Assembly (NCBI GenBank): GCA_951812895.1
Contig: OX638333.1
Coordinates: 3,266,001-3,330,000 of the forward strand
Length of the DNA: 64,000 nt
DNA from: an uncultured Roseovarius sp.
GTDB lineage: Bacteria; Pseudomonadota; Alphaproteobacteria; Rhodobacterales; Rhodobacteraceae
Reading direction: 5' to 3'
The notes under the pieces were generated by a model, which searched no databases, was not told where the DNA came from, and saw only the letters and a program-made list of their open reading frames with translations. Below are positions 12,388 through 32,483 of the stretch, piece by piece. How positions within the stretch are numbered: the first letter of the stretch is position 1; every line of letters starts with the position of its first letter. The translations under genes and the position numbers were made by a program.

Positions 12388-12396
12388 ATCGGGGCC

Positions 12397-13272: not shown

Positions 13273-13414
13273 ATCCCCAACCCTTTGTGTTGTGCACCTG
13301 TCCAGATTTTCAATGTAACGCCGGTTCTGATTTCGATAAAGAGCGCTGACTTATCAGGGGAAGTTGGAACAGTGTGCATTTGAACGGCTTTTGTTGCAAT
13401 TGCCCCTCGAAAGC

Positions 13415-15690: not shown

Positions 15691-16742
15691 GATACTTCCG
15701 TCCCTTCGATGACAGTGCGCAAAAGATCAGCACGGGTAATCAGGCCTACATCCTTGCCTTTGTCTTCCACCAGAATGGCACTGCTGTTGTCGATCGCCAG
15801 ATTGATCAGCGTGCTTAGGTTTTCGCCCTCATTGACGCGCGGCGCATCTGCGTCCAGCGGGCCGTGGGTCGCGACATAGTCTTCGATGGGCTGCATGACC
15901 GCATGGGCGCGTACGACTTTGAGGCGGGAAATGCCTGCCACGAAATCGGCCGCGTAATCATCAGCAGGGTTCATCACGATGTCTTCCGCTGTGCCGATCT
16001 GCACCACCTTGCCGTCACGCATGATCGCAATCCGGTTGCCGATGCGCACCGCTTCGTCAAGGTCATGCGTTATGAAGATGGTTGTCTTTTTCAGGATTTT
16101 ACTGAGGCGGATGAACTCATCCTGTAATTGTCGCCGGATCAACGGATCCAGCGCCGAAAATGGCTCGTCCATCAGCAGAACATCGGGATTTGCTGCCAGC
16201 GCTCTGGCCAGGCCTACGCGCTGTTGCATCCCGCCGGACAATTCATGCGCGAACTTGGACCCCCATGCGCCTAACTCAACGATATCAAGGATGGCGGCAG
16301 CCTGACGCATGCGTTCGTTTTTGCTAACCTGTCGGATTTCCAGCGGCATCGCTACGTTGTCCAGAACCGAACGGTGCGGCATCAGCGCGAAGTTCTGAAA
16401 CACCATGCCGATCTTGTTGTTGCGAAACTGCTGAAGCTCTTGCGGCCCCAGTGCCATCACGTCGGTGCCTTCAATCTCGATCTTGCCGTCGGTGGGTTCC
16501 AGCAGCCGGTTGAAATGGCGTACCATAGTGGACTTTCCGCTGCCGGACAGGCCCATGATACAGAATATCTCTCCGCGATTTACCGAGAGGCTGACATCTG
16601 CGACACCGACAACACAGTTGTATTCCGCCAGTACCTCGGCCTTGCTTAACCCCCGGTCGCGGATCGCCTGCAATGCGACCTCGGGTTTGGCCCCGAATAT
16701 CTTCCAGACATTTGAAATTTCTATGACAGTTTCATCGCTCAT
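15687..16742 (-). CDS. Betaine-type ABC transporter ATP-binding protein (ProV-like)
   Basis: A 351-residue ATPase of the quaternary amine uptake family. It carries Walker A GLSGSGKSTMVRHFNRL, signature LSGGMQQRVGLARAL, Walker B LLMDEPFSALDPL and the switch His in FITHDLDEAVRIG. The stretch after the ATPase domain ends in a partial CBS-like region (SSAILVEDKGKDVGLITRADLL), which in OpuA-type transporters senses ionic strength or cyclic nucleotides. It is placed 85 bp after the binding-protein gene and overlaps the permease start. Confidence 0.93.
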   Translation of the reverse strand: MSDETVIEISNVWKIFGAKPEVALQAIRDRGLSKAEVLAEYNCVVGVADVSLSVNRGEIFCIMGLSGSGKSTMVRHFNRLLEPTDGKIEIEGTDVMALGPQELQQFRNNKIGMVFQNFALMPHRSVLDNVAMPLEIRQVSKNERMRQAAAILDIVELGAWGSKFAHELSGGMQQRVGLARALAANPDVLLMDEPFSALDPLIRRQLQDEFIRLSKILKKTTIFITHDLDEAVRIGNRIAIMRDGKVVQIGTAEDIVMNPADDYAADFVAGISRLKVVRAHAVMQPIEDYVATHGPLDADAPRVNEGENLSTLINLAIDNSSAILVEDKGKDVGLITRADLLRTVIEGTEVS

Positions 16743-16778
16743 TTTGCGGATATGTCCCTGTTGAGGGTCAATTTATGT

Positions 16779-16805
16779 GGCGGCACCAATAGTGCCGGTG
16801 CCGCC
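16779..16805 (-). promoter_or_regulatory. Intra-operon hairpin after the binding-protein gene (operon A)
   Basis: GGCGGCAC (16779-16786) pairs with GTGCCGCC (16798-16805) in the 85-bp gap between the binding-protein and ATPase genes. Such hairpins commonly protect the upstream message from 3' exonucleases or partly terminate, giving more binding protein than ATPase and permease. Confidence 0.5.
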
Positions 16806-16827
16806 GGATTTCGAGGTAAAAGGTAGC

Positions 16828-17793
16828 TTACAGCCCCAGCCACGCGTCGACGCGATCAGGGTTGTTTTCCACCCATTCGCGCGCGACCTCTGCCGGATCG
16901 CGACCTTTGCCGCTGATCTCGTAGGCAAAGCCAGAGACATCATCGGATGTCAGAGCGAAGTTCGCGAAGAATTCCGCAATGGCGGGAGAGCGGTCAACCA
17001 AAGAATTCGACCACGCGATTTGAACGTTTTTCAATGCGTCCTTGGTCGAAACGCTGGATTTTTCGTACCAATCAGGATCATCCGAAGGTTGGACCATCGT
17101 GTACTTGGCCGGATCAAAGATTGGCTCACTCAGCATCTGTACGTCGAACATGTACCAAACCGCATGGGGCTTGTAGCAGTAGAAGGCATAGCCTTCGCCC
17201 TTGGCGATTGAGTCCTTGATACGAGCCGTTTTTACGCTTTCTTCGGCGCGGACCGGTTCGATGAAGTCGAGCAGGCCATAATCACGTGTCTTGACTTCGT
17301 TCACATTGGCCGAGGCCCAACCCGGGGCGCCGATCCACATTTCACCTTTGCCGTTGCCGTCACTGTCCATCAGTGCTGCGACATCCGGGCGGCCGAGGTC
17401 GGCGATATCCGTGATGCTGTTTGCCTCGCCAAAGTCCTGAGAGACGCAGAACCCTTGATTGCCTTCATAGGGGTTTGAAGACAGGGTCACTGTGCCTGCT
17501 TCGTCAACATATTTCTTGGTAAAGCTCTCCTGATTGGGCAGCCATACGTCGGGATGCACATCAATGTCGCCTTTGCCCTGATCCATCGCCTGGAAAATTG
17601 TGGCGTTATTTCCGGGAACAAATTCGACCTCTCCGCCGATACGCATTTCGACAACCGCGCCCAAAAGATGCGCGATGGCCTGTGCACCGGTCCAGGACGG
17701 CACGCCGATCTTGACCTCTTCAGCTGCAAATGCAGGCAGCGCGAATGCGCTGACCGCGGCAGCAAAGCCGAGTGATTTCAGTTTGTTATTCAT
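16828..17793 (-). CDS. Betaine-type ABC transporter substrate-binding protein (ProX/OpuAC-like)
   Basis: A 321-residue periplasmic binding protein. It has a signal peptide ending near AFALPAFAAEE, then the OpuAC fold: VPSWTGAQAIAHLLG, GNNATIFQAMDQGKGDIDVHPDVWLPN and several conserved Trp/Tyr residues (DPDWYEKSS, KPHAVWYMFD) of the kind that form aromatic cages for quaternary ammonium groups. It is the first gene of operon A and is followed by a hairpin. The ligand may be glycine betaine, choline, carnitine, DMSP or a related compound. Confidence 0.92.
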   Translation of the reverse strand: MNNKLKSLGFAAAVSAFALPAFAAEEVKIGVPSWTGAQAIAHLLGAVVEMRIGGEVEFVPGNNATIFQAMDQGKGDIDVHPDVWLPNQESFTKKYVDEAGTVTLSSNPYEGNQGFCVSQDFGEANSITDIADLGRPDVAALMDSDGNGKGEMWIGAPGWASANVNEVKTRDYGLLDFIEPVRAEESVKTARIKDSIAKGEGYAFYCYKPHAVWYMFDVQMLSEPIFDPAKYTMVQPSDDPDWYEKSSVSTKDALKNVQIAWSNSLVDRSPAIAEFFANFALTSDDVSGFAYEISGKGRDPAEVAREWVENNPDRVDAWLGL

Positions 17794-18962: not shown

Positions 18963-19820
18963 CTAACTTTCCATCCGGTCAGCGATGGCAACAATCCGGT
19001 ACATATCCCGCAGGACAGGTTTTTCGATCAACTTGCCGTCTATCACGACAAGGCCGGTATCAGCGGCTTCAAATTCGGCAATGATCCGACGGGCGCGTGC
19101 GATTTTTTCTGCTGAGGGCGTGAATACTTCGTTTAGGGCCGCGATCTGTTTTGGATGGACAGAGCCCTTGCCTGCAAACCCCAGATCGCGCGCTTGTTCT
19201 GCAGCCACGCGCATACCTTCGGGATCATCAAGATCAAGATAGGGCACATCAATCACATCCAGCCCGGCACCTGCCGCAGCATGAACGACACGCGAGCGGG
19301 CGTATAGCAGGGGTTCCCATGCATTCTGGCACCGCAATTCGGCCGCCATATCAACGCCGCCGAAAAACATCGCATCTATGCGGTCTGAACAGTGGGCAAT
19401 GTCGTGGGCGGCCTCAAGCCCGGCATTGGTTTCAATGATAACATGCAGCCGCGTGGCGTGGCCTGCCTCTGACAATAGCTGGTCCAGCATCACCACTTCG
19501 TCGGGGGTGCGGATCTTGGGCATCATCAATGCAGGAGGAGGGGTATCTGTAGCAAGGATCGCCTGTACATCCTCGATTCCGAAACGTTCGCGCATAGAGT
19601 TGATCCGAACGATCCGTTCAACGCCATCATCGGCCTGTGGCTGCTCGAACAGCGCAAGCGCCTTTTGCCGGGCTTCGGCTTTGTCTTTAGGAGCAATTCC
19701 GTCTTCCAACTCGACACAGACAATGTCAGCACCAGACGCGAGCGCCTTGGGAAACATGTCAGGCCGCAAGCCGGGTGTGAAGATAAAGCTGCGGCGGGGG
19801 CGGGGTGCGCGGTTGGTCAT
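18963..19820 (-). CDS. HpcH/HpaI aldolase/CitE-like lyase
   Basis: A 285-residue CitE-type protein (TIM-barrel, Mg-dependent). It has RRSFIFTPGLRPDMFPKAL, VELEDGIAPKDKAEAR with the metal-binding Glu/Asp region, MPKIRTPDEV, FFGGVDMAAEL and GKGSVHPKQIAALNEVF, matching stand-alone CitE-like proteins that cleave or hydrolyse (S)-malyl-, methylmalyl- or citramalyl-CoA-type thioesters. No citrate lyase CitD/CitF partners are near, so it is not citrate lyase. It is the last gene of operon B, 46 bp after the alcohol dehydrogenase, and would split the carbon skeleton left after demethylation. Confidence 0.85.
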   Translation of the reverse strand: MTNRAPRPRRSFIFTPGLRPDMFPKALASGADIVCVELEDGIAPKDKAEARQKALALFEQPQADDGVERIVRINSMRERFGIEDVQAILATDTPPPALMMPKIRTPDEVVMLDQLLSEAGHATRLHVIIETNAGLEAAHDIAHCSDRIDAMFFGGVDMAAELRCQNAWEPLLYARSRVVHAAAGAGLDVIDVPYLDLDDPEGMRVAAEQARDLGFAGKGSVHPKQIAALNEVFTPSAEKIARARRIIAEFEAADTGLVVIDGKLIEKPVLRDMYRIVAIADRMES

Positions 19821-19866
19821 TGGTTGTCCAAGTTTCAGGTTAAGGTTTCGACTGTTGTTTCGGTGT

Positions 19867-21051
19867 TCAACGTGCCTTTTCGATGGCGGTTTCTACCAGT
19901 TTTTGCATTTCATCGAAGCTGGTTCGACGCGGGTTGGTTCCGGCTGCACTATCCAAGAGCGCCTTTTCAGCAATACGAGCGGCGCAGTCTGCAGGTACGC
20001 CAATATCGCTCAGTGATTTGGGGATATCCAGCTCATCCAGAATCCGTTCAATTTTTGTGATGAAGGCATCGACCGATGGGTCGTCGAGTCCCATTGCATC
20101 GGCCATACGCTTAACCTTGTCTTCCATCCCGGGGAGGTTGAAGCGAAGAACAGTTGGCAGGATGATTGCATTTGTCAGGCCATGCTGAGTGTCAAATTCA
20201 GCTCCGACCATATGCGAGATAGCGTGCACATGGCCAAGCCCCTGCAAGAATGCGATCCCTGCCAGACAGGAGCCCACCAGCAATCCACCACGAGCGGCAA
20301 CATTCTGTGGTTCGCGCATCACCACCGGTAACCAATGCGAAATCAGCGCCAACCCCTCAAGCGCCATCCCATCACAAAGCGGATTAAAGCCCGGTACGCA
20401 GTAAGCCTCGATCGCGTGGGTCAAGGCGTCGGCGCCTGTCCATGCGGTCAGGTTGGCAGGAAGGCCAACGGTCAGTTCTGGATCAAGCAATGCCAAGGCA
20501 GGGCGCAGGTCAGGGTGATCGGCGCAGAACTTCATGCCTTTTGACACATCCGTAACCATCGCTGTGGCTTCGGTTTCGGCACCGGTTCCTGCGGTCGTGG
20601 GAATGGTAATCAAGATCGGGAAGGCCTGATCAGCACTGATTTCAGGGGCCGGTTTTTGATAGTTGAAGTCCAAAATATCAAAGTTGTTATTCGCGATCAT
20701 GCATATGGCTTTGCCGCCGTCCATCGCACTTCCACCACCGATGGCGATGATTGCATCATGCCCGCCGTCGCGGAATTTTACCCGACCTGCGCCGATTTCA
20801 TCATCCCGAGGGTTAGGAGATATGTCATAAAACACATCCGATCGCAGCCCGGCGGCATTTAACGTGCTGCCAAGCTCGCTTATGAATGGCAGGCCATAGC
20901 TGCCCCGATCTGTTACAATCAAGGGATTGGAGAGACCCATATCGGCACATCGCTTGCCGATCTCGGCCAGACGGCCGGGACCATAGGCAATTGGGACCGG
21001 AAAAATCCAGTCCTGCGGTTTGAGTATCTCGGCTTCTGAATTGGTGTGCAT
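19867..21051 (-). CDS. Iron-containing (group III) alcohol dehydrogenase
   Basis: A 394-residue Fe-ADH. It shows GGGSAMDGGKAI for NAD binding, TTAGTGAETEATAMVTD, the metal ligands Asp and His in GADALTHAIEAY, His in LGHVHAISHMVGAEF and the fourth ligand in FDTQHGLTNA. A TTG just upstream (21063) directly abuts the stop of the GcvT-like gene, but the ATG at 21051 is the better start. These enzymes oxidise primary alcohols or hydroxyacids to aldehydes; one member, DddB, acts in DMSP catabolism. In this operon it probably oxidises an alcohol or hydroxyacid made from the imported compound. Confidence 0.93.
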   Translation of the reverse strand: MHTNSEAEILKPQDWIFPVPIAYGPGRLAEIGKRCADMGLSNPLIVTDRGSYGLPFISELGSTLNAAGLRSDVFYDISPNPRDDEIGAGRVKFRDGGHDAIIAIGGGSAMDGGKAICMIANNNFDILDFNYQKPAPEISADQAFPILITIPTTAGTGAETEATAMVTDVSKGMKFCADHPDLRPALALLDPELTVGLPANLTAWTGADALTHAIEAYCVPGFNPLCDGMALEGLALISHWLPVVMREPQNVAARGGLLVGSCLAGIAFLQGLGHVHAISHMVGAEFDTQHGLTNAIILPTVLRFNLPGMEDKVKRMADAMGLDDPSVDAFITKIERILDELDIPKSLSDIGVPADCAARIAEKALLDSAAGTNPRRTSFDEMQKLVETAIEKAR

Positions 21052-21063
21052 TGTGTTTCTCAA

Positions 21064-22245
21064 TCAAGATGCAGGTCGCGTTGGAATGGTGCGGTCTATT
21101 CCTCTGACGATGTTCTTTTCGAGGTCAAAAAATGGGACATCGACAATCTGGCCGTCATGAACACTGCCGTCAGGCAGGTGCAAGGCAAGAGTGCGCCCGA
21201 CCCAGTCACCGGGTTTGTGAAAACGGATATACCCTACACCCAAACTCAATGTGGGAGATGGAATGCCTGCGGTGATGCGGCCCACTTCGGTATCGCCATC
21301 CATCACTGCACTGCCAGCTGCGGGTGTTTCTGTAGCGCAGGTCAGACCAAAGAGGCATGAACGGGTATCTTTGCCAACCAGCGCATCGCGCCCGACAAAT
21401 TCGCCCTTGTCCATGTTGATAAATGGGGCAAGCCCGGCCTCGTACGGGGTCATGTCCGGGGTTATGTCGGTGAGGTTCCCAAGAATCCCACCTTCGATCC
21501 GGCGAATGGTCAGCGCGCGGGTTGACGAAAATTCCATCCCGTGCGGTTCGCCGCAGGCGATCAGATGATCCCATAGTGCGAGATGATCTGTGGTTGCTCC
21601 GTCGCAGTAAATCTCGAACCCAAGTTCGTTGGTGAAACCGGTACGAGAGACATAGAGCCGCTGGCCGCCAAGATCGAAATAGCCCGAGCGGAAGTATTTC
21701 ATTGTCTCGTCAACGGCCCCATTTGACGCAGCTTTCATGATCTCGATCGATGCTGGCCCCTGAATTTGCAAAACACGGCTGTGGGGGTCAGATATTGTGA
21801 CGTCAAAACCACCGGAATGGGCCAGCAGCCAGGCCTCGAACGGGCCGTCGGCCTGTACGTACCAGAACCGGTTTTCGCCCAGGCGAAACATGACGCCATC
21901 CATGAATACACCGCCCTGTGGAGTGCAGGCGATGGCGTAGTAACCGCGTCCTTCGGTCATCGTGGCGACCTTGCGGGCAAAAACCTTTTCGAGAAACGGC
22001 ACAACATCCGGCCCAGAGATTTCAATGGGCTTTTCGGGCACGTCAAAGATCAATGCCTTTTGGCGCAGGCACCAATATTTTTCGAGATAATCTTCGCCGA
22101 TGAAGATGGGGAAATACCGCCCGGCATAAACGCCACGGATCATTTCCGGGCAGTCGGTGCGTTCAATAAAGGGTGACTCTTCAAAACGCCGGGCGCTGAT
22201 AGAGACATTGTTTTCCAGGTCGGAGGCTTCTTGCAGGTTGCTCAT
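21064..22245 (-). CDS. GcvT/aminomethyltransferase-family protein (DmdA-like length)
   Basis: A 393-residue stand-alone tetrahydrofolate-dependent methyl or aminomethyl transferase of the GcvT family. It shows QGGVFMDGVMFRLGENRFW with the conserved Asp, LQIQGPASIEIMK, SRTGFTNELGFEIYCDG, RRIEGGILGNLTDITPDMTPYEAG and DKGEFVGRDALV. GcvT itself acts with P, H and L proteins, none of which is here. Relatives remove methyl groups from dimethylglycine, sarcosine or DMSP. The N-terminal GRYFPIFIGEDYLEKYWCLR differs from DmdA as I recall it, so demethylation of DMSP cannot be claimed. Position between the molybdoenzyme (9-bp gap) and the Fe-ADH suggests it handles the methyl group of the imported compound. 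Confidence 0.85.
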   Translation of the reverse strand: MSNLQEASDLENNVSISARRFEESPFIERTDCPEMIRGVYAGRYFPIFIGEDYLEKYWCLRQKALIFDVPEKPIEISGPDVVPFLEKVFARKVATMTEGRGYYAIACTPQGGVFMDGVMFRLGENRFWYVQADGPFEAWLLAHSGGFDVTISDPHSRVLQIQGPASIEIMKAASNGAVDETMKYFRSGYFDLGGQRLYVSRTGFTNELGFEIYCDGATTDHLALWDHLIACGEPHGMEFSSTRALTIRRIEGGILGNLTDITPDMTPYEAGLAPFINMDKGEFVGRDALVGKDTRSCLFGLTCATETPAAGSAVMDGDTEVGRITAGIPSPTLSLGVGYIRFHKPGDWVGRTLALHLPDGSVHDGQIVDVPFFDLEKNIVRGIDRTIPTRPAS

Positions 22246-22253
22246 GTCTGAAC

Positions 22254-24587
22254 CTATGGATCGTTGGGTGTTTCGGGTCGCAAAATTTTTGGGGGTTCGT
22301 GTGCAGTAACCGGGGGAGGGGCCTCGGTAAAAAGTTCAGCTTCAACAAGGCAGGAATGCGCAGTTGGACCCTGACCAAGTTTTGATGTGCCTTTGTCCCG
22401 GGTCAGAACGTTTGGATTGCCGTGTTTGCACAGGCTGCCGGGCGTTGTCGGGTCCTGGGGGTCGTACCAAGACCCGGTGCTCATCTGTATCACGCCGGGG
22501 CGAATGGACGGATCGATTAAGATGCCGCCAAGACAAGCCCCGCGGTCATTGAAGAGCCTAACAATGTCGCCGTCTTTCAGGCCGCGATCGGCGGCATCAT
22601 AGGGGTGGATGAGTACCGGCTCACGCCCGGTAATCTTTTTGGCTTTGCTCACACCACCATGATCAAACTGCGAATGCAGTTTGTCCTTGGGTTGGTTTGA
22701 AATCAGGTGAAGTGGCCAACGCGGGTCAGCATTGCCAAGCCATTCGTATGGTTCGCGCCAGACGGGGTGGCCCGGACAGTCGTCATAGCCAAAATCGGCA
22801 ACGGTCTGAGAGAAGATTTCGATTTTACCACTGGGCGTGGCGAGCGGGTTGGCCTGAGGGTCGGACCGGAAACTGCTTAGCATTACGACAGGGTCGGCCG
22901 GATCATCTATTTTAAACCAACCGTTCTTAAGAAAGGTATCGTATTCGGGGATTTCAATTCCGGCGGCCTTGGCCCGGATGGCTGTCTGTTCGTATATCCA
23001 GCTTTGCCAGTCTTCAGACGATCGGTCTTCGGTAAAACTTGCGTCTACACCCATTTCGCGGGCAATTCCCGAGAATATTTCGTAATCGTCTCTGGCCTGT
23101 CCATATGGTTCGGTCAGCCGGCTCATCGAAACAACGTAAGGGTCGCGCGCGGTCAGCGCGATGTCCTGTCGTTCCAGTGGCGTGGTGCAGGGCAGAACAA
23201 TATCGGCGCGTTTCGCCAGAGAATTCCAACACCATTCGTTTACAATAATGGTTTGAGGTTTTTGCCAGGCCTGCATCATCAGGTTGAGATCCTGATGGTG
23301 ATGGAAGGGATTTCCGCCCGCCCACCAGACCAGTTCGATATCGGGGTATTCGTATCGCACCCCATCGAAATCAAACGGCTCTCCGGGGCGCATCAGCAAG
23401 TCGGTGATACGTGCCACTGGGATAAAATTTTTAACCGGGTTTTCACCCTGCGGAAGAGATGCCCCCGGCAAAATGGTAAATTTGCCACCGATAAAGTTCA
23501 TCGCGCTGTAGCCAAAGCCAAAGCCACCGCCGGGTAATCCGATCTGCCCAAGCATTGCAGCGAGGGTGATCGCGGCCCAAAAGGGCTGTTCGCCGTGATC
23601 TTGCCGGGTCAGCGACCAGCTGACCGAGATCATCGTGCGCTCTGACGCCATGCGCCGGGCCAGGTTCCGGATCGTAACTGCCGGAATTTCACAGATTTCG
23701 GCAGCCCATTCGGCGGATTTGGGTACGCCGTCAGTCTCGCCCAACAAATAGGGCAGAAAATGTTCAAAACCCGTGGTGTAGCGATCCAGAAATGCGTGAT
23801 CAGCCAGCCCCTCTGTCTGCAAAGTATGGGCAAGGGCCAAAATCATGGCCACATCGGAATTTGGTCGAATTGCCAGCCAATCGCCCCCAACGTCGTCCAG
23901 CAAATCGGATTTTAGCGGGCTGATGTTAACAAAATGAATGTTAGCATTGCCTGCCGTCATCAGACCTTCGCGTTGAATGTGACGCCCGGTTCCGCCCTGA
24001 CTGATCTGCCCGTTTTTCAGTGGCACGCCACCAAAGCAGACGAAAAGCGTCGTGTGGTCGCGAATGGAATCGTAGCTGGTGCAGGTGTCCAGATAAGCAC
24101 GGAAACTGCCCAGAATATGCGGCACCATCGCCTCGGCTGCGGCGAAGCTGTAGGTGAATTTGGAGCTGGTGAAGCCACCGATACAGTTCAGGAACCTCTT
24201 GAGCTGGCTTTGGGCGTGATGAAATCGTCCGGCGCTGGCCCAGCCGTAAGAGCCGCCAAAAATGGAGGCATTCCCATGATCCGTGCGGATCCTGTCGAGT
24301 TCTGTTGCAACAATTTTGTTCGCCTTGTCCCAGCTGACTTCGACGAAGGGATCAACACCACGTAGCTCAGTTCGTGCGCCGGGGCCGTGCTCCAGCCAGC
24401 TTTTGCGTACCATCGGGGCATCAATGCGGGTGGGGCCATGTTGTACGTCAAGAATGCCAGGTCCAATCGGCGATGGATCCTTGTCGTGTTCAAAAGCTAA
24501 CAGTTCCTGCACGCGTCCGTTGCCAACCCGGGCACGGTATGTACCCCAGTGCGAGCTGGTCAGGGGCAGGTCGTTGTGGTTGGTCAT
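22254..24587 (-). CDS. Cytoplasmic molybdopterin oxidoreductase, DMSO/TMAO/biotin sulfoxide reductase type
   Basis: A 777-residue enzyme of the DMSO reductase family (TorA/DorA/BisC branch). The stretch SIFGGSYGWASAGRFHHAQS matches the Mo-ligand segment of Rhodobacter DMSO reductase, whose coordinating residue is the Ser after GG; the MGD-binding segments SWSLTRQDHGEQPFW, WWAGGNPFHHHQDLN and NDRGACLGG are present. There is no N-terminal [4Fe-4S] Cys motif and no twin-arginine leader, so it stays in the cytoplasm like BisC. Its ATG overlaps the permease stop by 4 bp, so it is translationally coupled to the importer. It should reduce, or in the reverse sense form, an S- or N-oxide; the substrate is unknown. 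Confidence 0.88.
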   Translation of the reverse strand: MTNHNDLPLTSSHWGTYRARVGNGRVQELLAFEHDKDPSPIGPGILDVQHGPTRIDAPMVRKSWLEHGPGARTELRGVDPFVEVSWDKANKIVATELDRIRTDHGNASIFGGSYGWASAGRFHHAQSQLKRFLNCIGGFTSSKFTYSFAAAEAMVPHILGSFRAYLDTCTSYDSIRDHTTLFVCFGGVPLKNGQISQGGTGRHIQREGLMTAGNANIHFVNISPLKSDLLDDVGGDWLAIRPNSDVAMILALAHTLQTEGLADHAFLDRYTTGFEHFLPYLLGETDGVPKSAEWAAEICEIPAVTIRNLARRMASERTMISVSWSLTRQDHGEQPFWAAITLAAMLGQIGLPGGGFGFGYSAMNFIGGKFTILPGASLPQGENPVKNFIPVARITDLLMRPGEPFDFDGVRYEYPDIELVWWAGGNPFHHHQDLNLMMQAWQKPQTIIVNEWCWNSLAKRADIVLPCTTPLERQDIALTARDPYVVSMSRLTEPYGQARDDYEIFSGIAREMGVDASFTEDRSSEDWQSWIYEQTAIRAKAAGIEIPEYDTFLKNGWFKIDDPADPVVMLSSFRSDPQANPLATPSGKIEIFSQTVADFGYDDCPGHPVWREPYEWLGNADPRWPLHLISNQPKDKLHSQFDHGGVSKAKKITGREPVLIHPYDAADRGLKDGDIVRLFNDRGACLGGILIDPSIRPGVIQMSTGSWYDPQDPTTPGSLCKHGNPNVLTRDKGTSKLGQGPTAHSCLVEAELFTEAPPPVTAHEPPKILRPETPNDP

Positions 24588-26659
24588 TTGATGCTCAGGC
24601 CGAGGTCTTCCTGACGCTTACGGCTCCAGGCATTTGTCATCCGGTCGGTGATGATAGCGATGATCGCCATGCCGATACCGGCAATGATGCCCACGCCAAA
24701 GTCGCCGTCGCTCAGTCCGATATAGACAATCTGTTCCAGGCCATTGGTGCCAACAAGAGCGGCAATAACCAGCATCGCGATGCCGTACATGATGGTCTGA
24801 TTTAAACCCAGCATCATCACCGGCAGGGCAAGCGGGATTTTAACCTGCCACAGCATCTGCCGGTTTGTTGCACCGATCATTGTCGCGGCTTCGATCACGT
24901 TTGAGGGCAGGCTGCGCAGCCCATGTTCGGCGTATCGGATCGCCGGAACGATTGCATATGCAATGATCGCCAGCAGCGCAGTGAACTCTCCGATTTTGAA
25001 AACCATAACAAACGGGATCAGCAGGACGAACAGCGGCATGGTCTGTAACGTGTCATTGAAGGGACGCACGATGGCCGAAACTGTATCGTTATGTGCGGCC
25101 CAGATGCCTATTGCAGTGCCGAGTAAGAAGGAAATTAAAACCGCAATTCCGCACAAATATACCGACAACATTGCTTCGGGCCATATGCCGGTTACCACAA
25201 TGAAGCCCAGGCCGAGCGCAGTGCCTACGCCCAATGCGCGCCCTCCGATTTTCCAGCCACCGACAGCACAGATGAGGAGTAGAGCCGGCCAGGGCATACC
25301 TGTTAGTCCGAAATAAATCAGGATCGCAAATATCAGGATCGCGATGCCGGTATTGGTTCGCCCGCGATACGCGGCCCAGGCCGCCAGTGCAAAAACCACG
25401 GCCGCATAACCAATTTTGTGGGCCAGCGTCAGGTCGAACCCCCATGTGAAGGGGCTGACTGCGCCCTGCAGGCCGATCTTGGCTGGCAGCATGACGAAGA
25501 AGAATGCGAGTTTTTTGACAGTTTCAATTTCGCCCCGGAAGTTCACCACGACGTAGGTCAAGCCATCATTCATGACCCCTGCCGGGCTGAATTCCCACGT
25601 CCGGGGCCAAACGTTCAGGGTTCCAAAGATTTGGGCCAGAACGAAAAACAATGCTGCGCCGAGTGCTGCGACAACCCAATAACGATGTCTTTGGGCAAAA
25701 CTTTTATCCTCTGGATCGTAATCTCCTGATCGCGCTGCCAATCCAGCTGTGACCCTGTCGATCACCATGGCCATCAGGGCGATGACCATACCCGCCAAAA
25801 GGCTTTCGCCGAACTGGGCTTTGCGAATGGTTGACAGCACCTCCCACCCGATATCGGCTGTTCCGCCGATGATCGAGGCGATGATTACCATGCTGAGTGA
25901 AGCCATTGTTGCCTGATTGACACCTAACAATAGTTGCCGCAGCGCCGAAGGGACGCGTACCTGCCAGAACAGCTGACCGGGCTTTGCACCGGACATAAGC
26001 CCGCTTTCGATAATTTCGGGCGACACGCCGCGCAATCCGACGATGGTATTTCGCACCATGGGGGGGAAGGAATAGAGTACGCTGGCAATCAATCCGACGA
26101 CAGTGCCAAAGCCAAACAGCATCAGGATGGGCAGAAGATAGGCAAAGGACGGTACGGTTTGCAGTACATCCAGCATTGGCATGATGATCCGCTCAGCCCG
26201 GTCAGAAAAGAAACCCCAAACACCAAAGGCAAAGCCTACAAGAATGGCCAGCGGCACAGAGATGGCGACCAATGACAGCGTGTTCATGCTTTCGCTCCAG
26301 TAGCCGATCATCAGCATGTAGAGCATGGAGACGAGCGTAAACGCGGCCAGCTTCCAGCCGGATGCGGCCCAAGCGACGACGCAGAATAGGAACGCAGTAA
26401 CTGACCAGGGTAATGCGTTGAGTACAAAACGCACCGCTTTGATGGGCCATTCCAATGCCCATGACACGCCAAGGAAAAACCAACCCAGATACTCAACGAT
26501 CCAGTCCATGATCACATTCAGCCAATCGGAAATCGGCAGGATCAGGTCTTTGGGATATTTTGCCATCCAGGCCCATTCGCTCTGAAGCGAGAGGCATATC
26601 AGAGTAACGGCAATTACACCCAACCAATGCAGATCATTGCGATTGAACTTGAACGGCAT
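24584..26659 (-). CDS. Betaine-type ABC transporter permease, tandem double domain
   Basis: A 691-residue permease with two copies of the binding-protein-dependent transport core, one around residues 130-320 (VWGFFSDRAERIIMPMLDVL, GLRGVSPEIIESGLMSG) and one around 500-680 (VRPFNDTLQTMPLFVLLIPF, GLRSLPSNVIEAATMIGATN), about twice the size of normal ProW. I take the ATG at 26659 (MPFKFNRNDLHW), 4 bp past the ATPase stop with GGAGGAG upstream; the frame extends further upstream but reads Pro/His-rich junk inside the ATPase gene. One polypeptide can thus supply both halves of the channel. Confidence 0.92.
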   Translation of the reverse strand: MPFKFNRNDLHWLGVIAVTLICLSLQSEWAWMAKYPKDLILPISDWLNVIMDWIVEYLGWFFLGVSWALEWPIKAVRFVLNALPWSVTAFLFCVVAWAASGWKLAAFTLVSMLYMLMIGYWSESMNTLSLVAISVPLAILVGFAFGVWGFFSDRAERIIMPMLDVLQTVPSFAYLLPILMLFGFGTVVGLIASVLYSFPPMVRNTIVGLRGVSPEIIESGLMSGAKPGQLFWQVRVPSALRQLLLGVNQATMASLSMVIIASIIGGTADIGWEVLSTIRKAQFGESLLAGMVIALMAMVIDRVTAGLAARSGDYDPEDKSFAQRHRYWVVAALGAALFFVLAQIFGTLNVWPRTWEFSPAGVMNDGLTYVVVNFRGEIETVKKLAFFFVMLPAKIGLQGAVSPFTWGFDLTLAHKIGYAAVVFALAAWAAYRGRTNTGIAILIFAILIYFGLTGMPWPALLLICAVGGWKIGGRALGVGTALGLGFIVVTGIWPEAMLSVYLCGIAVLISFLLGTAIGIWAAHNDTVSAIVRPFNDTLQTMPLFVLLIPFVMVFKIGEFTALLAIIAYAIVPAIRYAEHGLRSLPSNVIEAATMIGATNRQMLWQVKIPLALPVMMLGLNQTIMYGIAMLVIAALVGTNGLEQIVYIGLSDGDFGVGIIAGIGMAIIAIITDRMTNAWSRKRQEDLGLSIK

Positions 26660-26663
26660 TGGA

Positions 26664-27746
26664 CTACTCCTCCTGTGCGGTGGAAGAGGGGGCACAGCCC
26701 CCGGCCAATGCGGCGGCAAGACCTCGTGCGGTTGCGACCCCGAGGGTCGAGCCGTCTTCGGCCTCAACAATCACGCCTTTTTCGTGCTCTGCCAATGCGG
26801 GCAGCAGCGTTTCAACCAGAGTGCCTGCGGCCACTTTGTTTAGATCGTCTGTCGGTTTGGCTGCGCCGTCCAGAATATCTTCGGCGCGCAGGATTCGTTC
26901 CCAAGGAACATCCTGGGTGAATTCGCGCACATAATCGTCAGCCGGGTTCAGGATCAGGTCGATCGGGCGTCCGATCTGAACCACGGCGCCATCCCGCATG
27001 ATCGCCATACGGTCAGCGATGCGCAGCGCTTCCTGAAAATCATGGGTGATGAATACGATTGATTTATGCAGTTTCGACTGAATGCGCAGAAACTCATCCT
27101 GCATTTGTTTGCGGATTAGCGGATCGAGCGCAGAGAATGGCTCATCCAGAAACCAAACATCTGGCTCGACTGCCAGCGAGCGGCCAATACCAACACGTTG
27201 TTGCTGTCCGCCGGAAAGCTCTTTTGGAAAGTTGTTTTCACGCCCCTCCAAACCGACGAGTTCAATGACCCGGTTGGCTTGGGCATAGCGTTCAGTTTCT
27301 TCAACACCCTGAAGCTTAAGCGGAAAGGCGATGTTGTCGATGACATTCAGGTGCGGCATCAAACCAAAGCTTTGGAAAACCATTCCCATTTTGTGGCGGC
27401 GAATATCAATCAGCTCTGCGTCGGATTTTTTCAGCAAATCTTCGCCATCAAGCAATACTTCTCCGGCAGTCGGCTCAACAAGGCGCGAGAGGCAGCGGAC
27501 GATGGTAGATTTACCCGAACCCGACAGGCCCATGATGACAAAAATCTCACCTACATGAACATCAAAACTGACATCGGCATTGGCGACGATGTGATCGGCG
27601 TCACGAATAGCGTCGGCATGTTTATGAGCATCTTCAACCCGGCCCTGGGAACTGTCGAAGAACTGTTCTGGTTGGCTGCCGTAGACTTTCCAGACGTTCC
27701 TGCAGGACAGTTTTACATCTGTGTGATCACCTGTTGGGGTTTTCAT
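26664..27746 (-). CDS. Betaine-type ABC transporter ATP-binding protein
   Basis: A 360-residue ATPase of the quaternary amine uptake family with Walker A GLSGSGKSTIVRCL, signature LSGGQQQRVGIGRSL, Walker B WFLDEPFSALDPL and FITHDFQEALRIADR. The region after the ATPase domain (about 270-360) is partly CBS-like and ends in a variable Ala-rich tail. It powers operon B's importer; the permease gene follows 4 bp later. Confidence 0.93.
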   Translation of the reverse strand: MKTPTGDHTDVKLSCRNVWKVYGSQPEQFFDSSQGRVEDAHKHADAIRDADHIVANADVSFDVHVGEIFVIMGLSGSGKSTIVRCLSRLVEPTAGEVLLDGEDLLKKSDAELIDIRRHKMGMVFQSFGLMPHLNVIDNIAFPLKLQGVEETERYAQANRVIELVGLEGRENNFPKELSGGQQQRVGIGRSLAVEPDVWFLDEPFSALDPLIRKQMQDEFLRIQSKLHKSIVFITHDFQEALRIADRMAIMRDGAVVQIGRPIDLILNPADDYVREFTQDVPWERILRAEDILDGAAKPTDDLNKVAAGTLVETLLPALAEHEKGVIVEAEDGSTLGVATARGLAAALAGGCAPSSTAQEE

Positions 27747-27855
27747 GGGCTGCTCCGATGGGATTGCCGTTGTGCAAAGCGTGGTTCTCAGGTGGAACCT
27801 GAAACGATCACACGAATTCTGGCGGCTTTGGGCAAGAAGGGGTTTGTTTTAGCAA

Positions 27856-27886
27856 TCGGGGCGGCGTACTTGGCGAGCCGCCCCGA
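27856..27886 (-). promoter_or_regulatory. Intra-operon hairpin after the binding-protein gene (operon B)
   Basis: TCGGGGCGGC (27856-27865) pairs perfectly with GCCGCCCCGA (27877-27886) around an 11-nt loop, in the 163-bp gap between the binding-protein and ATPase genes. As in operon A it probably sets a high ratio of binding protein to the rest; T residues after the stem are few. Confidence 0.6.
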
Positions 27887-27909
27887 CGTAACAAGTTTTG
27901 CAGAAGCGT

Positions 27910-28860
27910 TTACTGCTTGGCTTCGTCGATCCAGCCTTGCCATTTGGCTTCGTTATTCGCCAGCCACTCAGCAACGACTTCGTCCAGATCGCGGCCCTGA
28001 TTGTCGACCGCAAGGATCGCAGCGTTCTCTTCTTCATTCGTGAGATTGTAGAGCGTCAGCATCTTGAAGGCAGCAGGCCACTTTTCTTCAAAGCCACCCC
28101 AGACAACCTTATCAACAGAGGCTTGCTGGAAACCACAAGCGGTGTCGCGTTCTTGCTCTTCTTCGACACATTCACCATCAACGGGGTTCCATTCCACCCA
28201 GTTCAGATCGAGTTCCGCAAAGATCCAATGCGGCTGCCACATCATCATCAGGATCGGGTCACCAGCTGCGTAAGCTGATTTGAGTTCGGCCATCATCGCG
28301 CCTTCGCTGCCGCCGGCAACAGCACTATAAGGCAGGTCGATCCCGGCCACGATATCGCGTGAACGTGTGCCCCAGTCAGCCGGGTAAGTGATCAGGCGGC
28401 CATTGGGGAATGTTTCTGCGTTGGCAAAGGCCTGCGCGCAGTCGTAAAGCGCCTGATAACTGGGCAGTCCCGGGCATTTTTCTTCCATGTAAGGTGGATA
28501 AATCCAACCTTCGCGCGGCTCCAGACCGAGGCTGCCTAGTACAACAATGTCGCCTGCCTCAACCGCTTTGGGGTAGAGGTCGCCGATATTGTTGGTCCAG
28601 ACTTCGGTTTGGAAATGCAGATTGCCCTGAGCAAGTCCGGCATGTTGCGGCAGCGCGCCAGCGCTGACATATTCGATGTTGTAGCCCATTTTCTTGAGCA
28701 ACTCGCCTGCAATCTTGGTCGAGACGTGCTGGCCGGTCCAGTCATTCAGGATGACTTTGATGGGGTCGCTGTTTTCCGGCACATCGCCCGCGATGGCAAC
28801 GCCGGTTGATGTGAGCAGTGCAAACGCTATTGCGCTCACAGTTTTTGAAAAAATCTTCAT
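27910..28860 (-). CDS. Betaine-type ABC transporter substrate-binding protein
   Basis: A 316-residue periplasmic protein from the ATG at 28860 (MKIFSKTVSAIAFALLTSTG, a clear signal peptide cleaved near GVAIAGD); the frame upstream is not family-like. The OpuAC-type fold shows LNDWTGQHVSTKIAGELLKK, AQGNLHFQTEVWTNN and several Trp (MMMWQPHWIFAELDLNW, WQGWIDEAKQ). The ligand-cage aromatics are plentiful, consistent with a trimethylammonium or dimethylsulfonium ligand. It is the first gene of operon B and is divergent from the BetI-like regulator. Confidence 0.92.
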   Translation of the reverse strand: MKIFSKTVSAIAFALLTSTGVAIAGDVPENSDPIKVILNDWTGQHVSTKIAGELLKKMGYNIEYVSAGALPQHAGLAQGNLHFQTEVWTNNIGDLYPKAVEAGDIVVLGSLGLEPREGWIYPPYMEEKCPGLPSYQALYDCAQAFANAETFPNGRLITYPADWGTRSRDIVAGIDLPYSAVAGGSEGAMMAELKSAYAAGDPILMMMWQPHWIFAELDLNWVEWNPVDGECVEEEQERDTACGFQQASVDKVVWGGFEEKWPAAFKMLTLYNLTNEEENAAILAVDNQGRDLDEVVAEWLANNEAKWQGWIDEAKQ

Positions 28861-28917: not shown

Positions 28918-28946
28918 CAAAAAACTTACCATTGGAAAGTTTTTTG
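28918..28946. promoter_or_regulatory. Perfect inverted repeat upstream of operon B, candidate operator
   Basis: CAAAAAACTT (28918-28927) and AAGTTTTTTG (28937-28946) are perfect complements around a 9-bp spacer, 58 bp upstream of the operon B start codon and 86 bp upstream of the BetI-like start. TetR-family repressors bind such symmetric sites, and the position suits repression of operon B. Confidence 0.5.
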
Positions 28947-28973: not shown

Positions 28974-29031
28974 CCGAAGATCATTCGATTAATTGTTCAT
29001 GGTGGTTGTGCTTCAGAAAGGCGTTTCATCA

Positions 29032-29715
29032 ATGCGATCCAAGTCTATTCGCTCTATCAGACGCGCAGAATTGTCCCGAGCGGCGTTTGAGGCAGTGATT
29101 CGCTATGGTTTGCGAAAGACGACACTTGATAAGGTAGGCGACATTGCCGGTGTCTCAAAGGGTGTTGTTCTGCACCATTTCAAAGACAAGAGCGCGTTGT
29201 TGGAGGCGGTGTTTCGCAGATCAAACTCGCTGCTTAGCGAATCTGTCATTGAATTGTACCGTTATGCAGAAAATCCTTATGAACGGCTCTGGGCCATAAT
29301 CGTTGCCAATTTCTTTGAAACGATCTTTACCCGCAGGGTTTGTCAGGCTTGGGTGTCGTTGATTTCCGAAGTGCCCCATAACGAAGGCTGCCAGCGTATT
29401 CAGATTGCTTGTAACGAGCGAATCCAAAGCAACCTGCGGCACGAATTAAAGCATTTCCTCACTTCTGAAGAGGCTGCAAGCGCCGCCCGCCACCTGGGAA
29501 TGTTGATTGACGGCGTCTGGGTTAGGGCTGGTTTGCTGCCCGAGCCTGTTGAGAGCAGTACAGCAATTTCCGAGTTAGAATATGCAATTTCAAAGCTGTT
29601 GCCATTTGATGAAATCAGTGCTGCCAAGCACAAGGATGCTCGCAAGAAGATAGAAACGATTGCAGGGATCGCACTTGGCTCAAAGGCGTTTAAGGAAAAA
29701 TCCCTGCAAGTCTGA
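29032..29715 (+). CDS. BetI-like TetR-family transcriptional regulator
   Basis: A 227-residue regulator from the ATG at 29032 (MRSKSIRSIRRAELSRAAFE); a TTG at 28993 and an ATG at 28999 are also in frame. The N-terminal helix-turn-helix reads TTLDKVGDIAGVSKGVVLHHF, followed by KDKSALLEAVFRR, like BetI, the choline-sensing repressor of betaine genes. The long C-terminal tail past residue 190 (KHKDARKKIETIAGIALG) exceeds BetI. It is divergent from operon B and is the obvious regulator of it; choline or betaine aldehyde is a possible effector by homology. Confidence 0.85.
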   Translation: MRSKSIRSIRRAELSRAAFEAVIRYGLRKTTLDKVGDIAGVSKGVVLHHFKDKSALLEAVFRRSNSLLSESVIELYRYAENPYERLWAIIVANFFETIFTRRVCQAWVSLISEVPHNEGCQRIQIACNERIQSNLRHELKHFLTSEEAASAARHLGMLIDGVWVRAGLLPEPVESSTAISELEYAISKLLPFDEISAAKHKDARKKIETIAGIALGSKAFKEKSLQV

Positions 29716-29733
29716 TTCGGGGCACGAGATGTC

Positions 29734-30630
29734 TTAGACTGCGTAGCGTCTTCTGTTTATGAGGCTTGCCAGCGGTTCCAAAAGGCTGGCGCCTGCAATC
29801 AAGGCAATTCCGGTTATCTCGCGGCTGCCAAAGGGTTCACCCGCGAGTAAAGCGACAGAGATTGCCCCGACGATGATTTCTGTCATGAACAATAGGCCCA
29901 CCAACCCGGGACTCAGGTGTTTGGGGCCCCAAAGTGACGCAATCGTTCCGGGCAAGATCAAGAGTGCCATGAATGTCAGAAGCAACGGCATCGCTGGCAA
30001 TGTCTGTGCAACCGAAGGAATAAAAGAAGGCGCCAGTATGAAGGCGGCACCAGATGACAAGATCAGCGACCACATGAAAAAGCCCAGTGTTAATTCAATG
30101 GCGGAATGGCTGCTGTCGTGACGAATGCGAACCATCGCAATGGCCCATACCATTCCTGACCCCAACCCCATCCAATCTCCGACGTTTTGCGGAATGGGAA
30201 AACGTACACCCAGCCCGAAAATGGTCAACATGCCGACAACGGCCAAAACCATAGCGACAATGCGCATTGGTGTTACGGCATCCCCCAAAAAGATGCGCGC
30301 CAGAATCGTGCCCCAGAGTGGTGTCAGGTAAAACAGCAGCATCGCGCGCACAACGTCGGTGTAAACAATCGAGGTTGAATACAACAACAAGGCAATGCCA
30401 GAGATCATTGCCGTGATCTGCAGGTTCACTCCTCCGTGCAATACATGCCGCCATCGCCAAACGGCCACGGGCAACAGGCAAACCGTGGGCACCAGAAAAT
30501 AGACCATTGTGATCCAAAGGCCATGCAGCCCGGCTTGCTCGAGTTCTCTAAGCGGGATCCAGAACAATCCCCAGATGCCCCCTGCGTAAAGGCAGGCAAG
30601 TTTTGCCCTGGTTTCGAGAGATGGGATCAT
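29734..30630 (-). CDS. DMT-superfamily (EamA-like) transporter
   Basis: A 298-residue integral membrane protein with ten predicted spans in two five-span repeats (KLACLYAGGIWGLFWIP..., then LTLGFFMWSLILSSGAAF...), typical of DMT drug/metabolite transporters, which mostly export amino acids or nucleosides. The ATG at 30630 (MIPSLETRAKLACLY) gives the expected start; the frame extends 50 codons further with no family resemblance. It is convergent with the BetI-like gene (18 bp) and divergent from the BetA-like gene. The substrate is unknown. Confidence 0.88.
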   Translation of the reverse strand: MIPSLETRAKLACLYAGGIWGLFWIPLRELEQAGLHGLWITMVYFLVPTVCLLPVAVWRWRHVLHGGVNLQITAMISGIALLLYSTSIVYTDVVRAMLLFYLTPLWGTILARIFLGDAVTPMRIVAMVLAVVGMLTIFGLGVRFPIPQNVGDWMGLGSGMVWAIAMVRIRHDSSHSAIELTLGFFMWSLILSSGAAFILAPSFIPSVAQTLPAMPLLLTFMALLILPGTIASLWGPKHLSPGLVGLLFMTEIIVGAISVALLAGEPFGSREITGIALIAGASLLEPLASLINRRRYAV

Positions 30631-30821
30631 TTGGACGTGTTCGTTTCTTGGGATGCTGAGTCGGGCATGATCTGGTGTTGAAATTACACTGACCAACGGT
30701 AAGTATATTGTCAAATGGTAAGTCTGGCGATAACTTCGACCGGGCGAAACTTTAAGTCTGCGACCATGCGCTATGGGCAATATCAGCCATTTCTGTAGCG
30801 CGGTGAAAGTTCCAGGAGGAT

Positions 30822-32483
30822 ATGAAGTTGGAATTTGACTACATCATCGTTGGGGCAGGCTCGGCCGGATGTGTGCTGGCCAATCGGTTGACCGAGAATG
30901 CCGATAACAAAGTATTGCTGCTTGAAGCAGGCCAGGAAAACAACGCCTTATCGCTGAAAATGCCCGCCGCAGTGCTGTCTAACCTCAACAGCACCAAACA
31001 TAATTGGGCGTTTCAGGGCGAACCTGAACCCGAACTGAACGGGCGCAGTGTTCAGCATGACCGCGGCAAGGTTATCGGAGGCTCGTCGTCGATCAATGGC
31101 ATGGTGTTCATTCGCGGTCATGCACTGGACTATGAAGGGTGGCGGCAGGCGGGTTGCGAAGGATGGGGATATGCGGACGTATTGCCCTATTTCAAACGGC
31201 TTGAGTCATATGGTGGCGGCGCGGATGACTTTCGCGGATCTGAGGGCCCGCTGTTTGTACATCGTGCGCAGCCAAAAGATCCGCTGACGCTGGCCTTTCT
31301 GAAAGCGGGCGAAGAAGCGGGGTATCCTGTCACGGATGACATCAGCGGTTTTTGCCAGGAAGGTTTTGGTGTCTCCGACCGCAATGTCTATAACGGCGAA
31401 CGCTGGGGCACTGCGCGTGCTTATCTAGACCCGGTGCGCGACCGTTCGAACCTGACGATCCTGACACGTGTGCATGTACATCGCCTGGCTTTTGAGGGGC
31501 GGAATGCTTCGGGCGTTGTTTTCAGCGATCAAAATGGGAAAACGGTTGCGGCACAGGCTCGAAAAGAAGTCATTCTTAGTGCAGGGGCTGTTGGCTCTCC
31601 GCATTTGCTGATGCTTTCAGGGATTGGGCCGGCCAGGCATCTCAAGGAAGTTGGAATAGAGGTCCTGCACGACATGCCAGGTGTTGGTCAGAATTTGAAT
31701 GACCATCCAGATTTCGTACTTAAATTTAAATGCCTGAAACCGGTTTCCTTGTGGCCAAAGACCAAGAGACTTGCCAGTTTGGCGGCAGGCGTACAGTGGT
31801 TGCTGACGCGGGGTGGTATATGTGCATCCAACCACTTTGAAGCGGTTGCCTGTGTCAGGTCAGGTCCCGGAGTTGAGTATCCGGACCTTCAGATCATCAT
31901 TTCGCCAATTGCCGTGGACGATGAAACCTGGGAACCGTTGCCCGAACATGCGTTTCAGATCCACGTGGGATTGATGCGCGCGCATAGCAGGGGAAGTATT
32001 ACACTTCGGTCTTCCGACCCGACCGATCCCCCTCGGATCCTGGTGAATTATCTGAAAGACAAGCGGGATAGGGATTTGATGCGCAAAGGTATCCGGCTGG
32101 TGCGCGAGATCGTCGAACAACCTGCGTTTTCAGACCTTTGCGGCGAAGAAATTTTTCCAGGACAGGCCGTGCAATCGGATGATGGATTGGACGTGATTCT
32201 CAATTCTCACACGACCACTCAATGGCACCTTTCCTGCACAGCACGCATGGGTCTTAAATCCGATAAAGGTGCGGTCGTGGATGCCCGCGGTCGTGTCCAT
32301 GGCTTTACAGGGCTGCGGATTGTTGATGCGTCAATCATGCCATTCGTTACAAATGGCAACACCAATGCCCCAACGATCATGCTGGCAGAAAAGCTGAGCG
32401 ATGACATATTGGGGCGTGCCCCATTGCCCCGGATCGAGGCGGATATCTGGAAGAATAAGAAGTATGAAACCTGTCAGCGCTGA
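30822..32483 (+). CDS. GMC oxidoreductase, choline-dehydrogenase-like
   Basis: A 553-residue FAD-dependent GMC enzyme, a strong match in length and motifs to bacterial choline dehydrogenase (BetA). It has the FAD fold [22 protein letters not shown] signature 1 [21 protein letters not shown], signature 2 [19 protein letters not shown], and the C-terminal active-site region [16 protein letters not shown] with the catalytic His. A perfect AGGAGG precedes the start. Choline dehydrogenase oxidises choline to betaine aldehyde, but relatives use other alcohols; no BetB aldehyde dehydrogenase is beside it, so the betA symbol is withheld. Confidence 0.88.

Follow-up and report, generated by a model that had tools for sequence, protein, structure and literature searches.

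Which compound is imported and broken down by the products of the gene cluster that lies in this stretch of an uncultured Roseovarius genome? The window, by which we mean the whole stretch of 64,000 nucleotides that was analysed, corresponds to positions 3266001-3330000 of a genome assembled in one contig of 4.54 Mb. Seven minus-strand genes at window positions 18963-28860 encode a CitE-like lyase, an iron-containing alcohol dehydrogenase (Fe-ADH), a GcvT-like protein (GcvTa), a BisC-family molybdoenzyme (MoR), a double permease, an ATPase and a binding protein. An earlier note, made from the DNA letters, had described these as tightly spaced genes of the families named; all of the open reading frames (ORFs) were found at their places, and the families were confirmed. 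The cluster is larger than described there and takes in, at 28993-32483, genes for a BetI-like repressor, an EamA permease and a BetA-like dehydrogenase; a palindrome ties these divergent genes to the operon. We propose, giving the proposal an even chance, that the cluster is a substrate-inducible module that takes up and degrades a methylated onium compound, choline-like or dimethylsulfoniopropionate (DMSP)-like, with a sulfonium likelier than an ammonium compound. The features are the following.

18963..19820, minus strand: CitE/RipC-like HpcH_HpaI lyase, 285 aa, accessory (PF03328, 143 bits)
19867..21063, minus strand: iron-containing alcohol dehydrogenase, 398 aa at most (PF00465/PF25137)
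21064..22245, minus strand: GcvT-fold, probably folate-dependent methyltransferase (GcvTa), 393 aa (PF01571, 148 bits)
22254..24587, minus strand: BisC-family molybdopterin S/N-oxide reductase (MoR), 777 aa, without a signal peptide (TIGR00509, 941.4 bits)
24584..26659, minus strand: betaine-type permease with two BPD_transp_1 stretches, about 691 aa from the ATG at 26659
26664..27746, minus strand: ProV-type ATPase, 360 aa (TIGR01186, 334.6 bits, exceeding the cut-off of 326.6)
27910..28860, minus strand: OpuAC-family binding protein with a four-Trp cation box (PF04069)
28921..28943: operator-like palindrome AAAACTTTCCAATGGTAAGTTTT between the binding-protein gene and the BetI-like gene
28993..29715, plus strand: BetI-like TetR regulator (TIGR03384, 162.8 of 201.3 bits)
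29734..30780, minus strand: EamA-family permease, ATG near 30630 (PF00892)
30685..30726: two operator-like sites in tandem, between the EamA and BetA-like genes
30822..32483, plus strand: BetA-like GMC dehydrogenase (TIGR01810, 652 of 732.1 bits)

The spacing of the seven genes is operon-like. The permease and MoR genes overlap by 4 bp (24584-24587), as described earlier, and the gap between MoR and GcvTa, previously given as 9 bp, is 8 bp by the coordinates (22246-22253). The spacing is 0 bp between GcvTa and Fe-ADH (longest ORF), 46 bp between Fe-ADH and CitE, 4 bp between permease and ATPase, and 163 bp between ATPase and binding protein, whose start is an ATG at 28860 preceded by GGGAGA. 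A promoter and terminator scan gave sites no more numerous than in shuffled sequences.

The conservation of the cluster was examined by scanning GTDB contigs with a GcvT profile. This gave 175 relatives, of which the best 80 loci were kept and analysed; gene order was mapped with a purpose-made ORF caller and BLAST, several genomes being metagenome-assembled, and groups are named as in the record titles. The 80 loci span Rhodobacteraceae and Roseovarius-like genomes, SAR11 single cells, SAR116, other alphaproteobacteria, Arenicellales, Granulosicoccaceae and other gammaproteobacteria. An ORF labelled MoR directly adjoined GcvT in 57 of them, namely in all 31 loci with a SAR11-type permease and in 26 of the other 49; the 57 include five short MoR pieces (235-556 aa), one 183-aa fragment (L069) and two MoRs of Granulosicoccaceae type (49-50% identical). 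Where 2.5 kb or more of upstream sequence was available (65 loci), MoR was adjacent in 49; where the flanks were wide, extending 7 kb upstream and 4.5 kb downstream (42 loci), MoR was adjacent in 32, importer genes were present in 39 and Fe-ADH in 29. CitE occurred in 16 and aldehyde dehydrogenase (ALDH) in 21 of the 80 loci, and both are therefore accessory; CitE was seen in none of the 31 loci with a SAR11-type permease. These counts are not independent, because many loci are truncated where contigs end and some of the single cells are closely related. The earlier expectation that the enzymes co-occur with the importer thus held across genera and classes, beyond what chance would give, for the set without CitE. 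MoR lies beside GcvT in most loci, but in some relatives it has another place in the cluster or genome or gave no match.

Within the family of the window's genome, GcvT was found at E<=1e-110 in 11 of 295 sampled genomes (two only 57-58% identical) and MoR at E<=1e-290 in 22. Five of the 24 MoR places listed there adjoin GcvTa, and at the remaining 19 GcvTa was not found within 1.5 kb; one of the 19 is MoR37 of the genome itself, whose GcvT37 lies farther off in the same operon. In two further genomes, G033 and G224 (a 128-aa piece), MoR is cut off by the end of its contig immediately ahead of GcvT. The module is real, yet its distribution within families is patchy, and the window's clade of MoRs is often found without it.

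Two layouts were found. The fullest Roseobacter/SAR116/gamma version, in L039, reads BetA-EamA-BetI / ProX-ProV-ProW-MoR-GcvTa-FeADH-CMD-ALDH-CitE, ProX being the binding protein; the EamA permease was seen in 14 of the 49 loci with this layout. MoR has a different place, on the far side and adjoining a second GcvT (GcvTb) near BetA, in three SAR116 genomes and in two single cells of Rhodobacteraceae. The SAR11/alpha layout (31 loci) has ProW-MoR-GcvT in 31, a SAR11-type ProX in 30, ProV in 29, Fe-ADH in 25, a short-chain dehydrogenase/reductase (SDR) in 16, a beta-keto acid cleavage enzyme (BKACE) in 13 and an AMP-ligase in 11. All of the 25 loci showing Fe-ADH have an amidase gene next to it (for example, L077:832-3444, minus strand). 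Behind the MoR-GcvT pair, two alphaproteobacterial loci, L112 (11184-15573) and L105, have SDR, BKACE, a binding protein and AMP-ligase. Such BKACE-type loci suggest a beta-hydroxy or beta-keto onium acid such as carnitine or gonyol.

What MoR might do in such a module was then read from its sequence. It scored 941.4 bits against TIGR00509 (bisC_fam), which is under the cut-off of 1017.55 but nonetheless its nearest family. No twin-arginine or other signal peptide was seen at its N terminus as read from the sequence, and the cytoplasmic location proposed earlier is therefore reasonable; BisC, which MoR resembles, is likewise a cytoplasmic enzyme. In the alignment, MoR carries the selectivity tyrosine in the motif GGSYGW, plus the conserved serine. 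The S-oxide tyrosine was present in 69 of 70 aligned MoR-family proteins, Escherichia coli BisC included, and the sole protein without it was the E. coli TorA control (TAS-GW). Combined S/N-oxide reductases of the DorA/BisC/TorZ type have equivalents of Tyr114 and Trp116, and TorA lacks the Tyr114 equivalent, according to the available part of PMC5122715. GGSYGW provides both residues, which excludes MoR as a true N-oxide reductase of the TorA kind. MoR is thus predicted to be able to reduce S-oxides, and the earlier suggestion of an enzyme acting on oxides gains from this tyrosine. MoR shares family, tyrosine and serine with BisC, TorZ and DorA; it differs from them in being operonic with a GcvT-type gene. 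It is 39% identical both to E. coli BisC and to TorA and stands apart from the three E. coli enzymes in a tree made by a quick method without bootstrap. In that tree, the Granulosicoccaceae, SAR116-type and window/SAR11 MoRs form different clades, all beside GcvT-type genes, the SAR116-type MoR adjoining GcvTb. This recurrent pairing is the best argument for a shared chemistry, and separate recruitments are not proven by it.

A second MoR operon, with a divergent LysR gene, lies elsewhere in the same genome (3635590-3642936; L037:3591-10937, minus strand). It encodes MoR37 (58-59% identical), an NDP-forming acyl-CoA synthetase, GcvT37 (41%) and an AidB-type acyl-CoA dehydrogenase, and is a DmdABC-like set built from other families, parallel to DmdA/B/C. 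The dehydrogenase was rejected as DmdC: a PDB search put AidB-like chains first (450.8 and 428.1 bits), with 6ijc, presumably DmdC, at 61.9 bits.

The palindrome supplied evidence of joint regulation. AAAACTTTCCAATGGTAAGTTTT is a near-perfect palindrome of 23 bp between the BetI-like gene and ProX. Twenty-three stretches were compared, five of which are second copies of the same places (L143-L147). A site matching the palindrome at 16 or more of its 23 positions was present in 17 of the 18 distinct stretches; L043, the one left over, has a site too, beyond the borders drawn for its stretch. A weight matrix trained on the sites before ProX alone was run, with a threshold of 16 bits, on the 49 loci without a visible SAR11-type permease (a few of them SAR11 contigs cut short). 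It placed a site at ProX, the training case, in 18 of 21 testable loci, at BetA in 10 of 19, and at GcvTa in 9 of the 20 testable loci where this gene is not directly behind MoR or ProW, versus 0 of 28 where it is. Elsewhere it found 5 sites in 707,809 bases, a rate of about 0.002 for each stretch tested. Of the nine GcvT sites, five are in SAR116 genomes, three in Rhodobacteraceae and one in another alphaproteobacterium, some of these genomes being closely related, and the BetA and GcvT sites are missing from about half of the loci. The window's tandem sites before BetA are weaker (20.4 and 12.0 bits), with one mismatch each to the genome-wide pattern. The genome itself has four matches with at most one mismatch, of which three lie in the cluster (the perfect one and two with one mismatch); the fourth (2462736) is inside an unrelated ORF. 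At two mismatches, the pattern is at chance level, with 14 matches against 15 in a reversed control. The palindrome is a direct handle for finding the inducer.

From these parts, a pathway can be proposed. The binding protein would hold the quaternary cation in its four-Trp box, and the BetI-like protein would bind the palindrome and respond to the imported compound or an intermediate. The GMC dehydrogenase and/or Fe-ADH, plus ALDH in relatives, would oxidise an alcohol group; MoR would reduce an S-oxide (or N-oxide) form of the substrate or an intermediate; and GcvTa would pass one methyl group to tetrahydrofolate (THF), as DmdA does with DMSP. CitE, where present, may act on a C-C bond at a late stage. 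We prefer a sulfonium to an ammonium compound for two reasons: sulfonium is known to give up a methyl group to THF without net redox change (DmdA), and MoR appears competent for S-oxides. The best NCBIfam model for Fe-ADH was 4-hydroxybutyrate dehydrogenase (271.7 of 500 bits), and the lyase scored below both RipC (NF038242, 264.8; cut-off, 375) and CitE (TIGR01588, 167.9; cut-off, 443.4). The earlier note had the pathway split a CoA ester; this is unproven, since the window operon contains no CoA ligase or transferase and CitE is accessory. Its statement that the pathway was undescribed agrees with our search: in the open-licence PubMed Central (PMC) literature, preprints aside, no title or abstract beginning described this cluster, nor did the homarine and dimethylsulfoxonium propionate (DMSOP) literature there. 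If our proposal is right, present maps of ocean sulfur and one-carbon flow lack a pathway, common to Roseobacters, some SAR11, SAR116 and marine gammaproteobacteria, that consumes an organosulfur or methylated-nitrogen nutrient, and the oxide-reductase/demethylase pair would be a biological route for oxidised sulfonium compounds.

Could the cluster simply serve choline? It shares a BetI-like protein, a BetA-like GMC dehydrogenase and a betaine-type importer, as well as ALDH in relatives, with bet/cho choline catabolism (betI, betA, betB, choXWV), to which it adds MoR, GcvT, Fe-ADH and CitE. On this explanation, the cluster would take up and oxidise choline and glycine betaine in the ordinary way and contain a second BetI, and MoR, GcvT and CitE would serve glycine betaine demethylation or unrelated housekeeping. 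Paired BetIs are common in Alphaproteobacteria, and BetI2 of Ruegeria pomeroyi senses choline via a non-canonical box, as far as the available text goes (PMC12442346). However, the BetI-like protein fell short of TIGR03384 (162.8 versus 201.3), passing PRK00767 (139.9 versus 118), and the BetA-like protein fell short of TIGR01810 (652 versus 732.1), passing subfamily PRK02106 (734.2 versus 605). Both rank second in the genome, behind a BetI (234.7) and a BetA (819.6) that exceed the cut-offs and sit together elsewhere, which rules out the cluster as the genome's choline operon. The R. pomeroyi BetI1 box is ATTGACG*CGTCAAT in the part of that paper at hand (PMC12442346), and the cluster palindrome differs from it; a sequence one base off this box (without a chance control) precedes the genome's own BetI, a 502-aa gene that reads by eye at its N terminus as a choline sulfatase, and BetA. 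The BetI2 boxes are also off the BetI1 consensus and have a common flank, AAACTTGAAC (PMC12442346, same portion), so that the window regulator may be linked to BetI2. Moreover, choline offers MoR no oxide. We therefore hold the choline explanation to be unlikely, although it is the strongest of the alternatives. Because the genome has its own choline operon and its own DmdA, the cluster is a paralogous module, probably for another substrate.

The identity of that substrate as DMSOP or DMSP, with MoR reducing DMSOP to DMSP and GcvT demethylating DMSP or its product, ranks next and seems rather improbable. The hosts are marine, MoR is S-oxide competent by sequence, and a GcvTa profile ran first in the PDB to 3tfh (164.2 bits), which we take to be DmdA, ahead of T-protein (158.6) and TMAO (trimethylamine N-oxide) demethylase (145.8). 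The DMSOP cleavage paper raises the question of DmdA acting on DMSOP, and the word "reductase" is absent from the portion of it available (PMC10686828). GcvTa itself is not DmdA: it reached 155.8/155.7 bits against NF009133, whose cut-off is 410, and a separate DmdA elsewhere in the genome passed it with 571.4. It also stayed below TIGR00528, the glycine cleavage GcvT (112.2 versus 235.85). In a tree, GcvTa and GcvTb formed their own clade (support, 100/99); ten DmdA rows grouped separately but less firmly (80/99), with one DmdA row outside on a very long branch. Thus, the host already carries DmdA, and DMSP has no alcohol, so the GMC dehydrogenase, Fe-ADH, ALDH and BetI-type regulator would be unexplained. 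The binding protein has Met at the DmpX position Tyr200 and Ala at Thr64 (phmmer alignment, manual mapping). GcvT-fold methyl transfer to THF is expected both here and in dmdA/dmdB/dmdC; the cluster adds an importer and MoR, and its window operon has no CoA ligase. In ddd DMSP-cleavage clusters, dddB is an Fe-ADH, dddA a GMC dehydrogenase and dddC an ALDH, much as here; unlike those, neither a DMSP lyase nor a CoA-transferase was recognised by family searches among the window's cluster genes.

GcvTa is probably a folate-dependent methyltransferase. A SAR11 paper of 2011 describes, in the part available, aminomethyltransferases without assigned substrate, one of which adjoins a betaine transporter (PMC3160333). 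GcvTa was rejected as the aminomethyltransferase beside opuA in HTCC1062: close copies (82-100% identical) occurred in 5 of 247 SAR11-family genomes and 1 of 101 in the genus sample, the query's own counted in the former and being the single one in the latter, and HTCC1062 itself was not identified among these genomes. The remaining SAR11 matches (35-39% identical) are taken to be other paralogues.

An N-oxide pathway is doubtful to much the same degree, if slightly more so. TMAO-like compounds or tertiary amine N-oxides of choline analogues would be reduced by MoR and lose a methyl group to GcvT. Among NCBIfam models, GcvTa scored highest with the one for the GcvT portion of TMAO demethylase (181.3 bits; cut-off, 1100), and the best PDB relative of the binding protein was 4xz6, which is TmoX in the accessible part of PMC8918994. 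Trp41, Trp88, Glu117, Trp163 and Trp208 of the binding protein were invariant in 22 of 22 aligned sequences, an equivalent cation box being described for TmoX (PMC8918994) and DmpX (PMC10030565) in the portions of these papers at hand. Tested against the TmoX pocket (Trp55, Trp102, Phe106, Glu131, Trp177, Phe220 and Trp222), the Trp and Glu residues were kept, but Phe106 is replaced by Ile92 and Phe220 by Met206. The pocket residues therefore rule out both TmoX and DmpX, and MoR is not TorA-like at the selectivity tyrosine. The cluster thus shares with the TmoXWV-Tdm TMAO system and the DmpXWV DMSP importer an OpuAC-family protein with a four-Trp box, and with Tdm a GcvT-fold part, while its pocket differs from both. 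The R. pomeroyi dmpXWV genes do not adjoin known DMSP catabolic genes, as far as the available text of PMC10030565 states. Neighbouring the cluster, at window positions 9955-17793 (minus strand), are genes for a second betaine-type importer, an alpha/beta hydrolase, a kinase-like protein (GntI model, 148.6 of 357) and an FAD-GcvT fusion oxidase.

TMAO reduction would also release volatile trimethylamine, which counts against the N-oxide pathway. Least probable is that MoR is merely a repair enzyme, a methionine or biotin sulfoxide reductase in the operon by chance: it belongs to the BisC family, and 18 of the 24 listed family MoR places have no GcvT, acyl-CoA synthetase or other system partner within 1.5 kb (the exceptions among these 18 being one permease and distant ABC/ligase/lyase relatives), but MoRs of different clades are placed next to GcvT-type genes of this family.

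A more specific form of our proposal, in which the substrates are choline analogues of the sulfonium kind, sulfocholine for instance or another sulfonium alcohol like gonyol, is a long shot, on a par with the N-oxide pathway. Sulfocholine is 2-hydroxyethyl-dimethylsulfonium, the headgroup of phosphatidylsulfocholine in diatoms. The bet-like branch (BetI, BetA, ALDH) would turn the alcohol into a dimethylsulfonio acid, GcvT would demethylate this to a methylthio acid, and MoR would return sulfoxides to the pathway, making a sulfur mirror image of the choline-betaine pathway. Among the sulfocholine papers listed from the open-licence PMC literature, no title concerned bacterial breakdown.

Several observations weigh against the proposed onium module. 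The S-oxide tyrosine of MoR permits N-oxides as well, and BetI proteins sense choline itself, according to the part of PMC12442346 available. With GcvTa as a single-sequence query against solved structures, the glycine-cleavage T-protein came first (126.8 bits) and 3tfh (107.4) was level with TMAO demethylase (107.8), 3tfh ranking first only with the profile. ProX has no site in 3 of the 21 testable loci (L054, L071 and L108). All 31 loci of the SAR11 layout lack a visible BetI, ALDH or CitE; BetA appears there only as a 42% relative in 2 loci, and the binding protein shares no more than about 27% identity with that of the window, so that the substrate may differ between groups. The G296 locus (L064), from a possibly incomplete single cell, had an importer and GcvT without a MoR match; the G305 locus (L072) had GcvT but neither MoR nor this type of importer; and G301 and G302 had only 44-56% MoRs, located elsewhere. 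Conversely, in L220 (G054:C73), a permease (76% identical to the window ProW) lies about 0.9 kb before MoR, and GcvT was not found in the 1.5 kb that follow MoR.

A PrdB/GrdB-like selenoprotein, whose motif I-P-(I/V)-U-P-F-C-T-R is encoded with a TGA in frame (PrdB model, 89 bits; cut-off, 300), was seen beside the cluster in four loci: L146:3284-4519 (minus strand), L147:11257-12492 (plus), L069:1671-2921 (plus) and L108:8-910 (plus). In the L039 genome, about 13 kb separate it from GcvT, and the window's genome has a copy at 2720718-2721947, near SelA- and SelB-like genes as their N termini read by eye. Matches at E<=1e-20 were found in 12 of 21 genomes; ten of these are full-length matches of 67-100%, including the query's own and that of the window's genome (85%). 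The protein may provide a reductive step cleaving a C-N or C-S bond.

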